Source: Bacillota bacterium (GTDB lineage Bacteria; Bacillota; Limnochordia; DUMW01). From it: a DNA stretch of 56,499 nucleotides. The stretch lies in the NCBI GenBank assembly GCA_012839765.1, contig DUMW01000063.1, positions 1 to 56,499 of the forward strand, written 5' to 3'. The number at the start of each line of letters is the position of its first letter. Within the stretch, counting starts at the first letter, position 1. Below, piece by piece: positions 22,948 through 31,007 of this stretch. The notes below the pieces were generated by a model. It saw only the letters and a list, made by a program, of their open reading frames with translations. It had not been told where the DNA came from and ran no database searches. The position numbers and the translations under genes are program-made.

Positions 22948-23053
22948 CATGCGGCTACGGATACCGGTGAAACTGGCAGTAAAGGAAGGAGATCCCCGGT
23001 ATAACGACGAATGTTGAGATGGTTATGATGCACAGTCAAAGGAGGACACACTG

Positions 23054-23770
23054 TTGAAGCCAATTTTGCACATATGCTCATTAATGTTAATCATAATTAT
23101 GCTGACGATCACCACCATAGCTGCTTCCCCCTTTATCGATGGACCCGAAGAAGCAGCCGATTGTGATATATCTACCTTGTTGGATCGGGTGATCAACGCC
23201 TATACAGAGATCAATGAACTGCGGGCCACCATTCGGATCGAGATCATGGATCCCAATGCAGCCGGTTCCTTTTCAGACTACATCGTCGGTGAGGTGTTGT
23301 ATCGCAAACCTGACATCCTCCGCTTGACCTACTTGGAACCAATGGAATGGGCTGATTACTTTATCCTCATCGATCGCAAGCAGGATACCATGAAGACTTA
23401 TCAGCCGGTCACGGATCGGCTCTTTGTGGAGTCCCTCTCCGGTGCGGCCAAAAGCAACATCGGACTTTCCCTGGACAGTCTGCTGGTGCCCCCGGGGGAA
23501 GAGGATGTCATCCGTGTTACCCAGATGACCGACGTAAATACCCAGCAAAACCATTATGTAATCTACAACAAGACGGATCAGTATACCGATCTGGGCCTTC
23601 AGAAGTTCTGGCTAGATCCGGAAACCTATTTGATCAAGCAAGTGCATCTGTATGATCTGGAAGGCAAACTGTTGTTGCGGGGGATCATCCTGAAGATGGA
23701 GATCGATCCCAATATCAAGGATAGCGAACTGTTCTACATTCCACTGGAAGCAGAGATCTCATATCGATAA
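23054..23770 (+). CDS. LolA-like outer-membrane lipoprotein-sorting protein
   Basis: This 238-residue exported protein has a hydrophobic signal peptide followed by the LolA/LolB-like half-barrel pattern: an early helix (STLLDRVINAYTEINEL) and successive strands such as GEVLYRKPDILRLTYLEP, YFILIDRKQDTMKTYQP and KFWLDPETYLIKQVHLYD. LolA-fold proteins carry lipids or lipoproteins through the periplasm. The TTG start at 23054 has an ideal AAAGGAGG 8 nt upstream. It is the first gene of an operon with an RND protein, so it may deliver a hydrophobic cargo to or from that pump. Confidence 0.82.
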   Translation: MKPILHICSLMLIIIMLTITTIAASPFIDGPEEAADCDISTLLDRVINAYTEINELRATIRIEIMDPNAAGSFSDYIVGEVLYRKPDILRLTYLEPMEWADYFILIDRKQDTMKTYQPVTDRLFVESLSGAAKSNIGLSLDSLLVPPGEEDVIRVTQMTDVNTQQNHYVIYNKTDQYTDLGLQKFWLDPETYLIKQVHLYDLEGKLLLRGIILKMEIDPNIKDSELFYIPLEAEISYR

Positions 23771-23791
23771 CAAACAGGATGAGGGATTTGG

Positions 23792-26700
23792 ATGGGATTA
23801 CCTGAGTTAGCAGTTTCGAGGAAGGTCACGATGACAATGTTCATCGTGGCCGCACTTATCTTCGGTGTCATAGGCTTAAATCGGTTAGGGCTAGAGCTGT
23901 TACCGGACCTGAATATCCCAATGATGACCATCGCCACAGTCTATCCTCTGGCCAATCCCGAGACCGTAGAGATACAGATCACCAATCCCATTGAGCAAGC
24001 CATGGCTAAGATACCTAATGTTCGCAAGCTGGAGTCCATCAGCACCGAGAATATCTCGGTGGTCATGGTCCAGTTCAATTGGGGAACAGATCTAATAAAA
24101 ATGGTGGATCAGGTGCGCATCAGCCTCGATCAACTGTCTTACCAATTGCCGGAGGAAAGTTCTAAGCCTGTCATCATGTTGGTGGACCCTAACCAGACTC
24201 CCTTAATGCTTTTGGGTGTCAGTGCCAATGTGGAACCCGGAGAACTGGCCCGACTGGTGGAAGAGTTCTTACCAGCCCTGGAACGGATTCCGGGAGTGGC
24301 CGCTGTATCCGTAAGTGGAGGTCTCCAGGAAGAGATAAAGGTTACCTATTATCCCGAGAAACTGCAGCAATATGGACTGACGGTAGATCAACTGAAGCTC
24401 CTTTTGCAGGCCCAGAATGTGGTCTTGCCCATTGGCGCCATTGAAAGGGACGATACCCGCTATCTGGCCACGGTAGGTAACCGTTACAAGACCATTGATG
24501 ACTTACAGAACATGATCCTTGGAGAGCTAGATGCGGATCCGGCCCTGAACCAAGGCATTGGCCTTCTGGTGCCCAAGATGTTGCGCCTGCACCATGTGGC
24601 CGATGTAGAACTGGGCTATAAACCAGTGACCGGTTTCAGCCGGGTCGATAATCATCCGGCGATGATCATCAGCATCTACAAGCAGGCGGGCAGCAACACG
24701 GTGGAAGTAGCTACGGCCATCCATGAGGCGTTAGAAAGGATCCAACAGGCATCGGAAGAGCAACTAAGTTTTGCGGTATTACAAGATCAATCCTTCTTTA
24801 TCCGGGAATCCATGTCCTGGTTGAGCTCCTCTTTGGTGGAGGGTGCCCTTTTGGCAGTGATAGTTCTGTTGGTATTCTTGCGGAGCATTGCCAGTATCGC
24901 CTGCATTGCCGTAGCCATCCCCCTTTCCATCCTGATCACCTTTTTCCTCATGTATTTGTCCGGTTATACGTTGAATCTCATGACCCTAGGGGGAATTGCC
25001 CTCGGGGTGGGGATGCTGGTGGACAATGCCATCGTGGTATTGGAGAATATCTATCGTCACCTACAACTGGGTAAAGGGCTAAAAGAGGCAGTAGTGCAAG
25101 GCACCACCCAAGTGGCCAGTGCGATCACCTCATCCACCCTCACCACTTTGGTAATCTTTGTTCCCGTGGTGTTCCTGGGCGGTCTCACTGGAGAGCTTTT
25201 TAGGGAACTGGGGATTACCATCTCCTATGCTCTGCTAGCATCTTTGCTGGTGGCCCTCACCATTATCCCTATGTTGGCCTCACAGTTTATTAGAGCCAAC
25301 AAAAGAGGACAGCGGTATACCCGCAAACAATTGGATAAACTTAACGACTTGTATCGTTCTGCTTTGCAGTGGACCTTAAACCACAAGTCTTTGATCATTG
25401 GGCTTGTTATCGTACTCCTTTTGGGTAGCTCCCTGGTCCTGCTGTATCTGGATGTGGAGTTCCTGCCACCAATGGATCAGAGCATGATCAATGTCAATAT
25501 CGAGTTACCACCGGGACACACTCTGGCCGACACCAATGAGTTGGTCCTTCAGGTGGAAGAAGCCCTTCGTACCATTCCGGAGGTGGAAAGCATCGCCTCT
25601 TTGGTCGGTTCCTGGGCCGATGATCTGTTGGCTGCGGCCCGGGGAGCGTCCATCAACACCGCGAAACTGACGGTGATCCTCAAAGAGAAGGAACAACGGA
25701 CACGAAGCGCAGCACAGATTGCGGAGGAGATGAAGGCAGTCCTTGCTCCCTTTACAACGGCCCGGTTCGAAGTGATCCATGACATCGTGGGGGCCAGCAT
25801 GGGTACAAAACAGGCCATCACCTTGAACATTTCCGGACCGGACTTTTCCCTGTTGACAGAACTGACAAGGGAAATACAACAGCGGCTGAAAGCCACACCG
25901 GGCTTTGGAAATATCGTCTCGTCCTTGGATAAAGCCCAGCCGGAGTTATTCTTTGAGGTGAATCCCTTCCGGGCCCTCTCCGGAGGTCTTACCGCCACCC
26001 ATATCGCTCTGGCTATGCGGGATGCGGTGGGTGGAGCCGAAACCACCACCCTCCAAGTGGGTGGTCGGTCCTTGCCGGTGGTCCTGCGACCCAATTATGA
26101 CCCCACGACAGACTTTGACGCCTTTACAAAACACCGCATCCCCTCGGCGCTTGATCTAGGGAACGGACAATCCTATGTATACTTTGATCGGGTGACAACC
26201 CTTACGGAAACCACGTCCACCCTGGATATTCACCATACGGACCGGGTGCGCGCAGCCACGATCACCACGGCCTTGGAGGGAATCGGGATGCGCCAGGCCC
26301 TCAAACTAGTGGATGAAGTGGTAGCTGACCTCAACTTACCACCGGGCTATGCCATCGAATACGGTGGTTCCTGGGAAATGATCCGTGAATCCCTAGATGA
26401 GCTGTTCTTGGCCCTTGCTTTGTCCGTAATCCTGGTCTACATGGTCATGGCTGCCCAGTTCGAGGCCTTTGTTCATCCTTTGATCATCATGCTTACCGTT
26501 CCCCTGGGAGCCATCGGTTCCTTCCTGGGACTAGCCATCTCCGGCAGTCGCATCGGCGTGCCGTCGATGCTCGGGCTGATCATCCTGGTGGGAGTAGCCG
26601 TCAACAACGGCATCGTTCTGATTGACCATATCAACTATCTGCGCCGGAAGGAAAGCTACTCCCTAACCGATAGCGTAATCCAGGGTTCCGCCAACCGATT

Positions 26701-26944
26701 ACGGGCGGTGTTGATGACCACCCTTACCACGGTGTTGGCCTTGCTTCCCCTCAGTCTCGGTATTGGTTCCGGAGCGGAGGTACTCAAGCCCCTGGCCGTA
26801 ACATTCTCCTCTGGCCTGTTCATTTCCACGCTAATGACACTTTTCGTCATCCCCACGGTATATCATCTGGTGGAAGGCGGGCTAGCCAAAGGGCGTGCAA
26901 GGTCAGAGCAACAAGGAGGAACCATCAATGTGGTCGAAAACTAA
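23792..26944 (+). CDS. RND family transporter (HAE1/AcrB-like)
   Basis: This 1050-residue proton-driven pump has the RND plan of 12 transmembrane helices and two large periplasmic loops (about 35-340 and 560-870). The fourth helix carries GVGMLVDNAIVVLENIYRH with D411 and N412, where AcrB has two aspartates. The late GVAVNNGIVLIDHINYLRRK also fits. It starts with ATG 23792 behind GAGGG. Unlike normal efflux operons, there is no HlyD-type adaptor or TolC gene. Its partners are a LolA-like carrier upstream and a beta-barrel-like protein downstream. Confidence 0.92.
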   Translation: MGLPELAVSRKVTMTMFIVAALIFGVIGLNRLGLELLPDLNIPMMTIATVYPLANPETVEIQITNPIEQAMAKIPNVRKLESISTENISVVMVQFNWGTDLIKMVDQVRISLDQLSYQLPEESSKPVIMLVDPNQTPLMLLGVSANVEPGELARLVEEFLPALERIPGVAAVSVSGGLQEEIKVTYYPEKLQQYGLTVDQLKLLLQAQNVVLPIGAIERDDTRYLATVGNRYKTIDDLQNMILGELDADPALNQGIGLLVPKMLRLHHVADVELGYKPVTGFSRVDNHPAMIISIYKQAGSNTVEVATAIHEALERIQQASEEQLSFAVLQDQSFFIRESMSWLSSSLVEGALLAVIVLLVFLRSIASIACIAVAIPLSILITFFLMYLSGYTLNLMTLGGIALGVGMLVDNAIVVLENIYRHLQLGKGLKEAVVQGTTQVASAITSSTLTTLVIFVPVVFLGGLTGELFRELGITISYALLASLLVALTIIPMLASQFIRANKRGQRYTRKQLDKLNDLYRSALQWTLNHKSLIIGLVIVLLLGSSLVLLYLDVEFLPPMDQSMINVNIELPPGHTLADTNELVLQVEEALRTIPEVESIASLVGSWADDLLAAARGASINTAKLTVILKEKEQRTRSAAQIAEEMKAVLAPFTTARFEVIHDIVGASMGTKQAITLNISGPDFSLLTELTREIQQRLKATPGFGNIVSSLDKAQPELFFEVNPFRALSGGLTATHIALAMRDAVGGAETTTLQVGGRSLPVVLRPNYDPTTDFDAFTKHRIPSALDLGNGQSYVYFDRVTTLTETTSTLDIHHTDRVRAATITTALEGIGMRQALKLVDEVVADLNLPPGYAIEYGGSWEMIRESLDELFLALALSVILVYMVMAAQFEAFVHPLIIMLTVPLGAIGSFLGLAISGSRIGVPSMLGLIILVGVAVNNGIVLIDHINYLRRKESYSLTDSVIQGSANRLRAVLMTTLTTVLALLPLSLGIGSGAEVLKPLAVTFSSGLFISTLMTLFVIPTVYHLVEGGLAKGRARSEQQGGTINVVEN

Positions 26945-28025
26945 GACCTGCATTTTTCTCGCTGGACTGATTGTCCTTTACACCTTTCTCGGGGCCGTTG
27001 GTATGGCCCAGACTATCACCCAGGAGGATTCCGGCCTGATCATTAATGAACGGGAACTGAATCTGGGATTTTTGCGCCGAGCCGGCGACATTGGCGAATA
27101 CTTGCTGGGGGTTTTGATTCACGGTCGCACCTCCGACGCCATTTTCCGTTTTCATGTCAGCAATCTACCGACCGCGGGCATCGAACCCACTGCCCCCGTA
27201 ACGGGACTGCAGTTTAACTGGAACAAGATCATCGGGGTCACCAGTTATGTGGATCTCAAGGGAGATTTCCACATCCAGTGGAACCCCAATGAATATGGTG
27301 CCGTGGCCTCACCTTCCCTGTATCTGATCGGCGGCGCCGGCCAGGCAGCCTTCCGGAATTTCTCCGGGGCCATCCGGACCGGCTTCATTGAAGGGAAATT
27401 TCCTGTGGATTCGTTACCTGGCATCGGATCAGCCAACTGGAGTCTACCTCTATCGGAGTTTTTCGGTATCGGCAGTTCCGTGGGTCTGGTGGCTCCCAAT
27501 TCAGATCCTTTCTTCTGGATGGATCTGGAGGGGCGTCTCCGGGTAGATCGTACCCTCACAAATCTAGCTAACATTAGTTGGCGCTTTAGCATGGGTGATA
27601 CGGTTCAACAGGAATTGCGTGTTTTGGTGGGCTCCCAGTTCACCCTGACGACAGAGAATACCGTATCCCGGTTCACCGGCCGCATCGGCGTCCTAAACGT
27701 CGGGGACAAGCTGTACCCGGTACTACAAATGGACTATTCCCTGCGGCAAGGCCATGAGCAAAGATTTCATATCGGCCTAATGACCGCCGCGGGTCATCTG
27801 GCCAACAAGGGTATTGACCCCCAGCTGGGACAAGCTGCCGTCTCCTATGAACGAGCCCTCAGCGACCGGGAAACCATCAACCTGCTGTTTATCTCCTCCC
27901 TAGACCAATTGGGGAAGATTAATGTATTTCAGTTAGACCTCAAACGGTTGGATCTTGATACGAATTTGCGCTTGCAGCGCACCGAAGACGGTCAATTACG
28001 CACGACCCTGTCCGTAAGTTTCTAG
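26928..28025 (+). CDS. Secreted beta-strand-rich protein, probable outer-membrane beta-barrel
   Basis: This 365-residue protein has a clear signal peptide (about 1-28, cleavage after GMAQ or nearby). It is then almost entirely alternating hydrophobic/polar strands with short turns, with no transmembrane helices, and ends in TTLSVSF. A C-terminal aromatic residue after an amphipathic strand is typical of barrel proteins inserted by the BAM complex. I do not recognise the family. ATG 26928 has AAGGAGGA 7 nt upstream, and the gene overlaps the end of the RND gene by 17 nt, so the two are coupled. Confidence 0.65.
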   Translation: MWSKTKTCIFLAGLIVLYTFLGAVGMAQTITQEDSGLIINERELNLGFLRRAGDIGEYLLGVLIHGRTSDAIFRFHVSNLPTAGIEPTAPVTGLQFNWNKIIGVTSYVDLKGDFHIQWNPNEYGAVASPSLYLIGGAGQAAFRNFSGAIRTGFIEGKFPVDSLPGIGSANWSLPLSEFFGIGSSVGLVAPNSDPFFWMDLEGRLRVDRTLTNLANISWRFSMGDTVQQELRVLVGSQFTLTTENTVSRFTGRIGVLNVGDKLYPVLQMDYSLRQGHEQRFHIGLMTAAGHLANKGIDPQLGQAAVSYERALSDRETINLLFISSLDQLGKINVFQLDLKRLDLDTNLRLQRTEDGQLRTTLSVSF

Positions 28026-28047
28026 CAGGTAAAGGAGCGCATGTCCC

Positions 28048-29775
28048 TTGCGAAGACTACTGGTCGTGATTGCTCTTGTCTGCAGCTTCACTATTTTTAT
28101 GAGAGGGACTTTGGCGTGGGCTTTGGATCTATCTGCCATCACCCAACTGCCCTTCCTGGCTTCTGCACAGTTGGCGGTGGAATCCACCCCCTACGCGGGG
28201 ATCACCTTCTACCGCCTAGAACAAACCACGCCTCGTCCCTTATTAATTCATATCCTAGAGGTAGATCTCACAAACCCTAGTATCAGTCTGGATCTCTTGC
28301 TGGGAAATCACGTCCTTACCAGTCCGCGGACCCTCACCAGCATGGTGGATCAGGAACAGGAAGTGATCGCGGCCACCAATAGTGACTTCTTCTACATTTC
28401 TTCTACCCAATCTCCGGTAGGACTAGCCATCAAAGAGGGAGTGGTATTAAAAGGGGATCATCCGGATCTCTTGCGACCCTGTCTCGGTTGGGATCAGGAA
28501 GGCCGGGGACACATCGGTTACTGGTCCTGGGAAGGGATCTTAAGACTTCCCACAAGCAACGAAAGTTTCCCCATCGCTGCCTTCAATGACATTTACCTTC
28601 CCAGCAACGGATTGGTCATGTACAACAGCTATTGGGGGACGCGGGTACCGCAGAACATTGTTCAACAGGCTGCATTGGCAGTTTCCATAAAAGAAGACAC
28701 GGTCCAGGAAATCCGACAGAATCCCAACCAGATAACGATCAACCCCGATACAACCTATTTATTGGCCTTTGGCCCGATGGCATCCCAACTACTGACCTTG
28801 ATTGCCCCGGGAAGCAAAGTAGAGATTGAGGAAGTCTTCTACGGTCCTGCGGGCCTTAAACTGGCCGTCTGCGGTTTTCCCATGCTGGTGGAGGAAGGAA
28901 GGATCCTGACGGATTTTCCCGATTGGCTCAACGGACCTAATCCCCGCACCGCGGCGGGATTGAATGAGGAGGGAACCGCTCTCACCCTGATGGTAGTGGA
29001 TGGGCGCTCCCAGATCAGTCATGGAATGACCCTCGATGAACTGGCCCAGTTTTCTGCGGCCCTAGGTCTGTATTCGGCCCTCAACTTTGACGGAGGGGGT
29101 TCGTCTACCATGGTCATGCGTCAACCCCTGGGTCAGGCCATGGTCCTGAACAACCTGCCAGACAATGTTCAACGGGCCATTCCTATTGCGCTAGCCCTTA
29201 GGAGTGTCCCCGTCGTCATCGACTGGGCGGAGATTTGGTCCACCATTACCGCCAAATACTCCACCCACTCTCTACTTGATTTTACCGAGGAAGCCATCAC
29301 CCTCAGCTTCGCCCCGAACAGTATCCAGGGAGAACTGCTCATCACCCAAGGGCCCGTTCTGGAAGATGGCACTACTGCCTTGGCGGCTCGCCTGGATTTC
29401 GTCCCCGAGGCCACCCTCCGACGCCGAGAGCTCTCCTTAGACCTGGCGGAACCGGTAGAGTTGCCGGAAAATGCCCGACAGCTGGGAGCATGGGTTTATG
29501 CAGAGATACCTGCGCCCTATGCCATCGAAGCCACGATCACGGATAAGGAGGGTACAGCTCATCGCCTGGTCCTGACGGAGACCATCGACTGGACCGGATG
29601 GCTCTACATCAGTGCCGAACTCCCCGATGCGGTACCGGCGACGACCTTCTCGTCACTGCACGTGATTATTCCCCCTTTGAAGCGAGGGGAGCTTACCAGG
29701 CTCTATTTCCAAACGATCATGGTGGGTGTGGATGATGAACAAAGACCCACGAAAAGATGGGAACTGGTTCCTTAG
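28048..29775 (+). CDS. Phosphodiester glycosidase (NAGPA) domain protein
   Basis: This 575-residue exported protein starts with a signal peptide (about 1-26). The region 55-390 fits the NAGPA fold: AATNSDFFYISS, AIKEGVVLKGD and the diagnostic ALNFDGGGSSTMV. Bacterial NAGPA proteins cleave sugar-phosphodiester linkages in the envelope or polysaccharides. The C-terminal 180 residues form an extra beta-rich region resembling a carbohydrate-binding module. TTG 28048 has AAAGGAG 10 nt upstream; an ATG at 28041 is in another frame. It is the last gene of the LolA-RND operon, after a 22-nt gap. Confidence 0.85.
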   Translation: MRRLLVVIALVCSFTIFMRGTLAWALDLSAITQLPFLASAQLAVESTPYAGITFYRLEQTTPRPLLIHILEVDLTNPSISLDLLLGNHVLTSPRTLTSMVDQEQEVIAATNSDFFYISSTQSPVGLAIKEGVVLKGDHPDLLRPCLGWDQEGRGHIGYWSWEGILRLPTSNESFPIAAFNDIYLPSNGLVMYNSYWGTRVPQNIVQQAALAVSIKEDTVQEIRQNPNQITINPDTTYLLAFGPMASQLLTLIAPGSKVEIEEVFYGPAGLKLAVCGFPMLVEEGRILTDFPDWLNGPNPRTAAGLNEEGTALTLMVVDGRSQISHGMTLDELAQFSAALGLYSALNFDGGGSSTMVMRQPLGQAMVLNNLPDNVQRAIPIALALRSVPVVIDWAEIWSTITAKYSTHSLLDFTEEAITLSFAPNSIQGELLITQGPVLEDGTTALAARLDFVPEATLRRRELSLDLAEPVELPENARQLGAWVYAEIPAPYAIEATITDKEGTAHRLVLTETIDWTGWLYISAELPDAVPATTFSSLHVIIPPLKRGELTRLYFQTIMVGVDDEQRPTKRWELVP

Positions 29776-30185: not shown

Positions 30186-31007
30186 TCAATTCAGGTGTGT
30201 ATTGGTGTTTAGAACCAGGGTGGTCAGATATTGCTGCAACTCTTCTAACATCTCCTGACCCCGTTGGATAGCCTCACGCAACTCTGCCTGCCGGCGTGCC
30301 ACCAACAGGGGGCTTTTGAGGAGTTCCACCTGATCAAAGGGAAAGGTTTGCCGAATCTGCTCCATTTCTAAAAGCAGGTCCCCAATCTTCTTCCTCAAAA
30401 ACTGCATCTTCTCTGTCAGCTCTTCCATGGCACTGGGCCGGCCATTGTTGGAAGACCCCCCCTGTAGCACCAGTTCCAACAGAACCCTAAGCATATCTAC
30501 ATTCCCGGTACGATAGGCCGCATTTACCTGATGCCAAAGGGCCCGCTGCTCCTCTCCCCTGTGGGGGTTGAGATCCGGATGCAGTTCCTTAACCAGGAGA
30601 CGATAGATCCTTTTCAGCTCAGCCACTTCCTGCGGCCGAAGTTTGGGACATTTCTTGAGGTAATTGGCCAGGTCGATCTCCGCAGCTAACTGTTTCAGCC
30701 GTTCCCGATATTGCTCATACTCCCGATCCAACTGCCTTTCGATGGCAGCAAGATTGATCGCTACCCGTCGGTTTATGCAAGATTGTACCAGCTCGATTTT
30801 CCGCCTGGTCCGGGCAATACTGCACTCCACTTCATACAAGTCGTACTCCAACACCCCAATTTTCAGCATATACTCGGTCTGCCATCGATTTGCCTCATGA
30901 TACACAAGATCCGCCCGTTGTTCGAAAACCTCCGCCAATTGTGCCTTCAGTTGAATGTACTCTTCCAGGAGCTTGGCATATTCCGGGTCGATGATCAGAC
31001 TGGACAT
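30186..31007 (-). CDS. Coiled-coil protein with central J-like domain
   Basis: This 273-residue soluble protein has long coiled-coil segments at both ends (about 8-110 and 195-262). The middle segment (about 125-175) reads LKRIYRLLVKELHPDLNP and contains the HPD tripeptide (143-145) of DnaJ domains, which stimulates Hsp70 ATPase. No glycine-rich or zinc regions of DnaJ are present. It may be a specialised co-chaperone. The downstream neighbour is the broken HIRAN gene. ATG 31007 is preceded by AAAGGGAGGGGG. Confidence 0.75.
   Translation of the reverse strand: MSSLIIDPEYAKLLEEYIQLKAQLAEVFEQRADLVYHEANRWQTEYMLKIGVLEYDLYEVECSIARTRRKIELVQSCINRRVAINLAAIERQLDREYEQYRERLKQLAAEIDLANYLKKCPKLRPQEVAELKRIYRLLVKELHPDLNPHRGEEQRALWHQVNAAYRTGNVDMLRVLLELVLQGGSSNNGRPSAMEELTEKMQFLRKKIGDLLLEMEQIRQTFPFDQVELLKSPLLVARRQAELREAIQRGQEMLEELQQYLTTLVLNTNTHLN

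Follow-up and report, generated by a model that had tools for sequence, protein, structure and literature searches.

The locus at 23054-29775 of the window, by which we mean the whole 56,499-nucleotide contig analysed here from a bacterium of the class Limnochordia, raises the question of what an RND pump is doing between a LolA-like protein and a barrel-like protein. Four plus-strand open reading frames were confirmed there (Table 1). The LolA-like and RND genes are separated by 21 nt, the ATG of the barrel gene lies within the end of the RND gene, giving a 17-nt overlap, and a further 22 nt lie between the barrel and NAGPA genes. No HlyD or TolC gene was found adjoining the operon. An initial annotation had described four co-directional genes with small gaps or overlaps and no HlyD or TolC alongside, all of which the reading-frame check at the locus upholds; the strong ribosome sites that it saw are present in three of the four genes, whereas the RND gene has a weak one.

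Table 1. Features of the LolA-RND-barrel locus in the window.
Feature	Position	Strand	Evidence
Shine-Dalgarno AAAGGAGG of LolA-like gene	23038..23045	+	sequence
LolA-fold putative periplasmic carrier, 238 aa, TTG start, N-terminal signal peptide	23054..23770	+	profile, Pfam, AF2/Foldseek
HAE1/AcrB-type RND permease, 1050 aa, ATG start, without adaptor gene beside it	23792..26944	+	ACR_tran 769 bits
Shine-Dalgarno AAGGAGG of barrel gene, within 3' end of RND gene	26913..26919	+	sequence
Exported outer-membrane beta-barrel-like protein, 365 aa, ATG start	26928..28025	+	hhalign, alternation, C-terminal Phe, AF2
NAGPA-domain exported protein, 575 aa, TTG start	28048..29775	+	PF09992 103 bits

The neighbouring genes comprise a DnaE-like gene on the plus strand (judged by sequence alone) and, on the minus strand, ypeB, sleB and a gene at 30186-31007, whose 273-aa product weakly matches a DnaJ domain in its middle part (24.1 bits against a cut-off of 27.8). 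Because sleB and ypeB stand upstream on the opposite strand, the host is taken to be a spore former. Promoter and terminator scans gave chance-level results only.

The conserved cassette consists of the first three genes, encoding a LolA-fold protein, an HAE1-type RND pump and an exported barrel-like protein. The LolA-RND pair occurs at 34 loci, 19 of them in the class Limnochordia (counting that of the window) and 15 elsewhere in the phylum, and since it recurs at so many loci and in many genera, a chance neighbourhood is ruled out. At 26 of the 34 loci a barrel-like protein lies next to the pump or is fused with it, seven of these being fusions, which supports the expectation of a dedicated outer-membrane-type protein tied to the pump. 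Seven LolA-RND loci (in family f2, in one f4 genome and as second copies in f13) have no adjoining barrel and count against the carrier system proposed below; one further contig ends too early.

The fourth gene behaves differently. The initial annotation had made the phosphodiester glycosidase (NAGPA) part of the system, and this is not supported: the related cassette loci yielded no NAGPA homologue, and for this reason we left it out. That all four genes constitute one envelope-polymer system would agree with the position of the NAGPA gene, 22 nt after the barrel gene on the same strand and with a ribosome site, but with homologues not found at other loci, and with the cassette followed instead by a MATE gene in f76 and by PrkA in f16, we regard such a system as very improbable.

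The pump is a full-length HAE1 permease, in which ACR_tran spans residues 5-1027 at 769 bits and whose nearest solved relative is MdtB (PDB 9lyq, E=1.3e-109). The LolA-linked pumps form one group with a support of 0.99 in an RND tree whose outgroup is thinly sampled, with two other RNDs. The window's genome yielded no RND-linked adaptor; as this assembly consists of 121 contigs and is 95.9% complete, an unseen adaptor gene is possible. The sole HlyD detected in the genome belongs to an ABC operon of MacB type, which also has two TolC genes. With HlyD and TolC absent at the locus and the only HlyD in an ABC operon, the window set was rejected as a tripartite HAE1 efflux system in its own right. 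The RND could instead be an ordinary tripartite pump that borrows an adaptor and a TolC encoded elsewhere, with the LolA-like protein and the barrel as accessories. Its normal HAE1 membership and the TolC homologues in 71 of the 73 genomes of the class are compatible with this, but the single HlyD available belongs to the MacB-type operon, which has its own two TolC genes, and we consider the borrowing improbable. SwrC is thought to export drugs as a lone pump, and by analogy a generic HAE1 RND could do the same, which counts against a carrier system. A second RND of the window's genome (L126:8392-11999) has a MarR-like regulator as neighbour but neither adaptor nor TolC, and so stands alone.

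We then consider the first protein of the cassette. The window's LolA-like protein on its own matches Pfam weakly (PF17131, 14.6 bits against a cut-off of 30), PHROGs returned nothing useful for either the LolA-like or the barrel protein, and PF03548, the curated LolA family, has no match in the window's genome. Since PF03548 is silent, kinship to LolA could be recognized only with the wider LolA_like family and a profile. The profile of the family (A1, 19 members) matches the LolA-like structure PDB 2yzy over its full length with E=1.6e-11, and 13 of the 19 members match Pfam LolA_like at E<=0.1. A narrower LolA profile for related loci retrieved four loci only, which made the AF2 alignments shallow; from an alignment of five sequences, the window protein was modelled with pLDDT 68 and pTM 0.67, and the top 50 Foldseek matches of this model are LolA, LolB, RseB and their relatives (best LolA E=7.8e-9). 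Taken together, these results establish that the family has the open beta-barrel fold of the LolA/LolB superfamily, as had been suggested from the letters of the window. The protein was rejected as a lipoprotein carrier LolA of the Lol pathway, given the lack of a PF03548 match in the genome and a neighbour that is an RND pump and not LolCDE.

For the third protein, Pfam gave no family above cut-off for the 365-aa sequence. The sequence features of an outer-membrane barrel, namely a signal peptide, amphipathic strands and a C-terminal aromatic residue, are nevertheless all present: the signal peptide of the window protein ends in GMAQ and its last residue is Phe. A signal-peptide-like start is found in all barrel candidates at the same position, and a C-terminal Phe in 25 of 25 complete same-position proteins versus 61 of 560 complete ORFs of >=200 aa (barrels included). 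The beta-type alternation of hydrophobicity, scored over shuffles, reaches z=1.4-5.4 in the barrel candidates versus -0.9 to 1.5 in five controls, with z=3.6 for the window protein. By hhalign, the window protein is related to the separate barrels of f13 (E=2e-4) and to the fused domains of f16 (E=6e-4), which are themselves related to each other in profile comparison (E=3e-10). The barrels of f76 and f51 make up another profile group, and those of f23, f4 and f14 showed no sequence link to other groups in the profile comparison; lacking detectable homology to the others, these last three may be unrelated barrels.

Structure prediction of the window barrel, from four sequences, yielded a low-confidence model (pLDDT 41) that is beta almost throughout and has 15 strands of >=7 residues. 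Foldseek matches of this low-confidence model are mostly outer-membrane barrels (PorV-like, LptD, porins, TamA), the best at E=5e-4. We conclude that an outer-membrane-type beta protein as third member of the cassette is strongly indicated and that the window protein itself is likely a barrel.

RND and barrel are encoded as one ORF at seven loci (L032, L033, L036, L038, L046, L047 and L048, in families f16, f4 and f14), with fused frames of up to 1457 codons; that of L047 is cut by a contig end. As six of the assemblies are fragmented and one locus (L048) lies on a closed chromosome, a single assembly error is no explanation; the closed chromosome that bears a fused form is G063. The linkers contain a hydrophobic core followed by AxA in 7/7 cases and basic residues upstream in 6/7, and resemble the signal peptides of the separate barrels. 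Two genes that had lost the stop between them and kept an internal start were rejected as the origin of the fused frames, since no start in the linkers has a convincing ribosome site; L048 alone has a candidate, an ATG preceded by a weak GGAG. The C-terminus of AcrB-type pumps is cytoplasmic, so a linker resembling a signal peptide would export the barrel domain, and signal peptidase could cut it. The fused pumps fall on three separate branches of the RND tree, indicating that fusion or splitting happened more than once. Fusion strongly signals that the joined parts are functionally coupled. In the limited literature searched, no report was found of a fusion between an RND pump and an outer-membrane protein; RND-TolC fusions may be described elsewhere.

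A sister family gives the arrangement a reference point. At the f12 loci (L117:1-5375, L118 and L119) an HlyD gene (PF16576, 110 bits) is followed by an RND::TolC fusion of ~1450 aa, which matches ACR_tran at 891 bits and OEP at 113 bits and has the same type of internal linker resembling a signal peptide. Because HlyD followed by RND::TolC and LolA followed by RND::barrel share one layout, the LolA-like protein corresponds by position to the adaptor and the barrel to TolC. This common layout, together with the failure to find an RND-linked adaptor in the genome, supports the earlier suggestion that the LolA-like protein replaces the adaptor.

The cassette is found in organisms with two membranes. 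In the window's genome (2.56 Mb), BamA (147 bits, with POTRA), LpxD-like and LptF/G genes lie in one cluster, the gene equipment of a diderm envelope; directly upstream of bamA is a gene whose 610-aa product gives a partial match to the SpoIVB peptidase (S55) (L127:3302-5134). Omp85 is found in 71 of 73 members of the class, and an outer membrane has been visualized by TEM in two Limnochordia isolates (PMC11456536). In a sample of 398 genomes of the phylum, LolA-family matches at E<1e-20 occur in 28, and 28/28 of these have Omp85 versus 102/398 overall (hypergeometric p ~1e-18, a value that ignores shared ancestry). These counts and the microscopy bear out the outer-membrane setting supposed by the initial annotation. 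The gene order likewise recurs in diderm relatives, and no monoderm relative with the complete set was found among the 398 genomes. Another locus of the same class, L116, matches the Guaymas Basin MAG GB_124 (ZCTH02-B6 lineage), which has been placed in class Limnochordia (PMC8630151).

The LolA-like gene also occurs outside the cassette. Five of the 28 strongly LolA-positive genomes (family f8) carry it without a pump. At L053:3728-6597, and also at L055, L057 and L060, genes for an M48 peptidase, a LolA-like protein and an exported protein of ~250 aa stand in a row, with genes for an rRNA methylase and for Rnf downstream. The LolA-like genes in this M48/Rnf context (f8-f12) were put aside as a different, pump-free gene group. 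One genome without Omp85 has a LolA-like gene with no RND gene nearby (L112, G344:C34:67118-67696), which shows that the LolA fold by itself does not mark an outer membrane.

We think it rather probable that the three genes form a trans-envelope carrier system of diderm Bacillota for a hydrophobic cargo. Powered by the proton gradient, the RND would extract a molecule of hydrophobic or amphiphilic nature from the inner membrane, or from the outer leaflet of that membrane, and pass it to the LolA-fold protein, whose hydrophobic cavity would carry it across the periplasm. The dedicated outer-membrane beta-barrel would receive the cargo and either insert it into the outer membrane or release it outside, so that LolA would do the work of the HlyD adaptor and the barrel that of TolC as exit duct. 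In several lineages pump and barrel would be made as one polyprotein, with the linker acting as an internal signal peptide that places the barrel domain in the periplasm; a cut by signal peptidase after AxA could then supply pump and barrel parts in equimolar amounts. No cargo gene is linked to the cassette, which counts against this reading; the class of the cargo, its hand-over and the cleavage are inferred.

The outward direction is similarly deduced, and the flow could in principle be reversed, the barrel taking up a hydrophobic nutrient or a mislocalised lipid, LolA bringing it across to the inner membrane, and the pump then clearing or returning it. FadL-like and porin barrels among the Foldseek matches of the low-confidence model would fit such a retrograde route, as would Thalassolituus, in which an MMPL protein with a LolA-like domain and a porin form a pair induced by long-chain alkanes (PMC6304351). 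It is established, however, that AcrB-type RND pumps move cargo outward, and the slot comparison with HlyD followed by RND::TolC points to export as well, making inward transport quite unlikely.

A close functional parallel is AmeABCD of Castellaniella defragrans, which comprises an RND, a LolA-superfamily protein (DUF1329) and an outer-membrane protein (DUF1302) with no HlyD or TolC; it is an apolar monoterpene exporter whose deletion lowers tolerance to hydrophobic monoterpenes (PMC6394551). Both gene sets unite an RND, a LolA-superfamily protein and an outer-membrane protein. AmeD, however, is an HAE3 pump and the one here HAE1, AmeABCD has an extra periplasmic protein (AmeC), its genes are separate, its host is a betaproteobacterium, and its LolA and barrel families are others. 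The cassette was accordingly rejected as a member of the AmeABCD type: Pfam gave no DUF1302 match, DUF1329 is matched marginally by one member (E=0.082), and the operon has no AmeC-like gene. In aryl polyene clusters, ApeL-ApeM-ApeN combine a LolA-like chaperone with an RND transporter and are proposed to bring a lipid-linked product to the outer membrane (PMC8253772). They share the LolA-like protein and the RND with the cassette, but have a LolB-like protein (DUF3261) in place of the beta-barrel, lie within a biosynthetic cluster and belong to Proteobacteria.

Among conventional systems, AcrAB-TolC and MdtABC have a pump of the same RND family, and the f12 RND::TolC beside HlyD has the layout of the LolA-RND::barrel loci; unlike these pumps, the window set is without HlyD and TolC and has a LolA-fold protein and a porin-like barrel. 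The Lol pathway (LolCDE-LolA-LolB) has the LolA fold in common, but neither LolCDE nor LolB stands beside the window gene. Within the class, one closed chromosome (G066, locus L111) has a single operon for an RND, a LolA_like protein (E=2.8e-57) and an exported protein of 408 aa whose last residue is F, and differs in its 795-aa pump of MMPL/HAE3 type and in the order RND-LolA-OMP. A TetR-like regulator accompanies this AmeABCD-like MMPL-LolA-OMP triad (L111:5184-10290).

Judged by gene content, the cassette would work like AmeABCD, ApeLMN and the Thalassolituus pair, and by its HAE1 pump, its Pfam differences and the pump-barrel fusion it is a member of none. The initial annotation had seen in the set a candidate for an uncharacterised system, which has to be qualified: sets of a LolA-superfamily protein, an RND and an outer-membrane partner are known in Proteobacteria (AmeABCD, ApeLMN), and the HAE1 pump and the fusions set the cassette apart. 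We lean slightly against the stronger proposal of a distinct transporter class of diderm Bacillota mostly without Lol, in which a LolA-fold shuttle takes the place of the adaptor of an HAE1 RND and a private barrel that of TolC, made in at least three lineages as a polyprotein split by signal peptidase; if it is true, LolA-fold shuttles serve outer-membrane building beyond lipoprotein sorting.

According to a review, diderm Terrabacteria are mostly without Lol, and the origin of LolA is unclear (PMC11784454). Diderm Firmicutes, most of which have neither Lol nor outer-membrane lipoproteins (PMC11784454), must bring hydrophobic molecules to their outer membrane, and the cassette is a concrete candidate for such a route. 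The pump-barrel fusions, for their part, would imply that components of both membranes come from one polypeptide, a direct and testable claim.

At one f16 locus (L032:13585-18075), PrkA, DUF444 and SpoVR genes come after the cassette, and the window's cassette stands beside sleB and ypeB. With such neighbours, the cassette may be linked to sporulation or germination.
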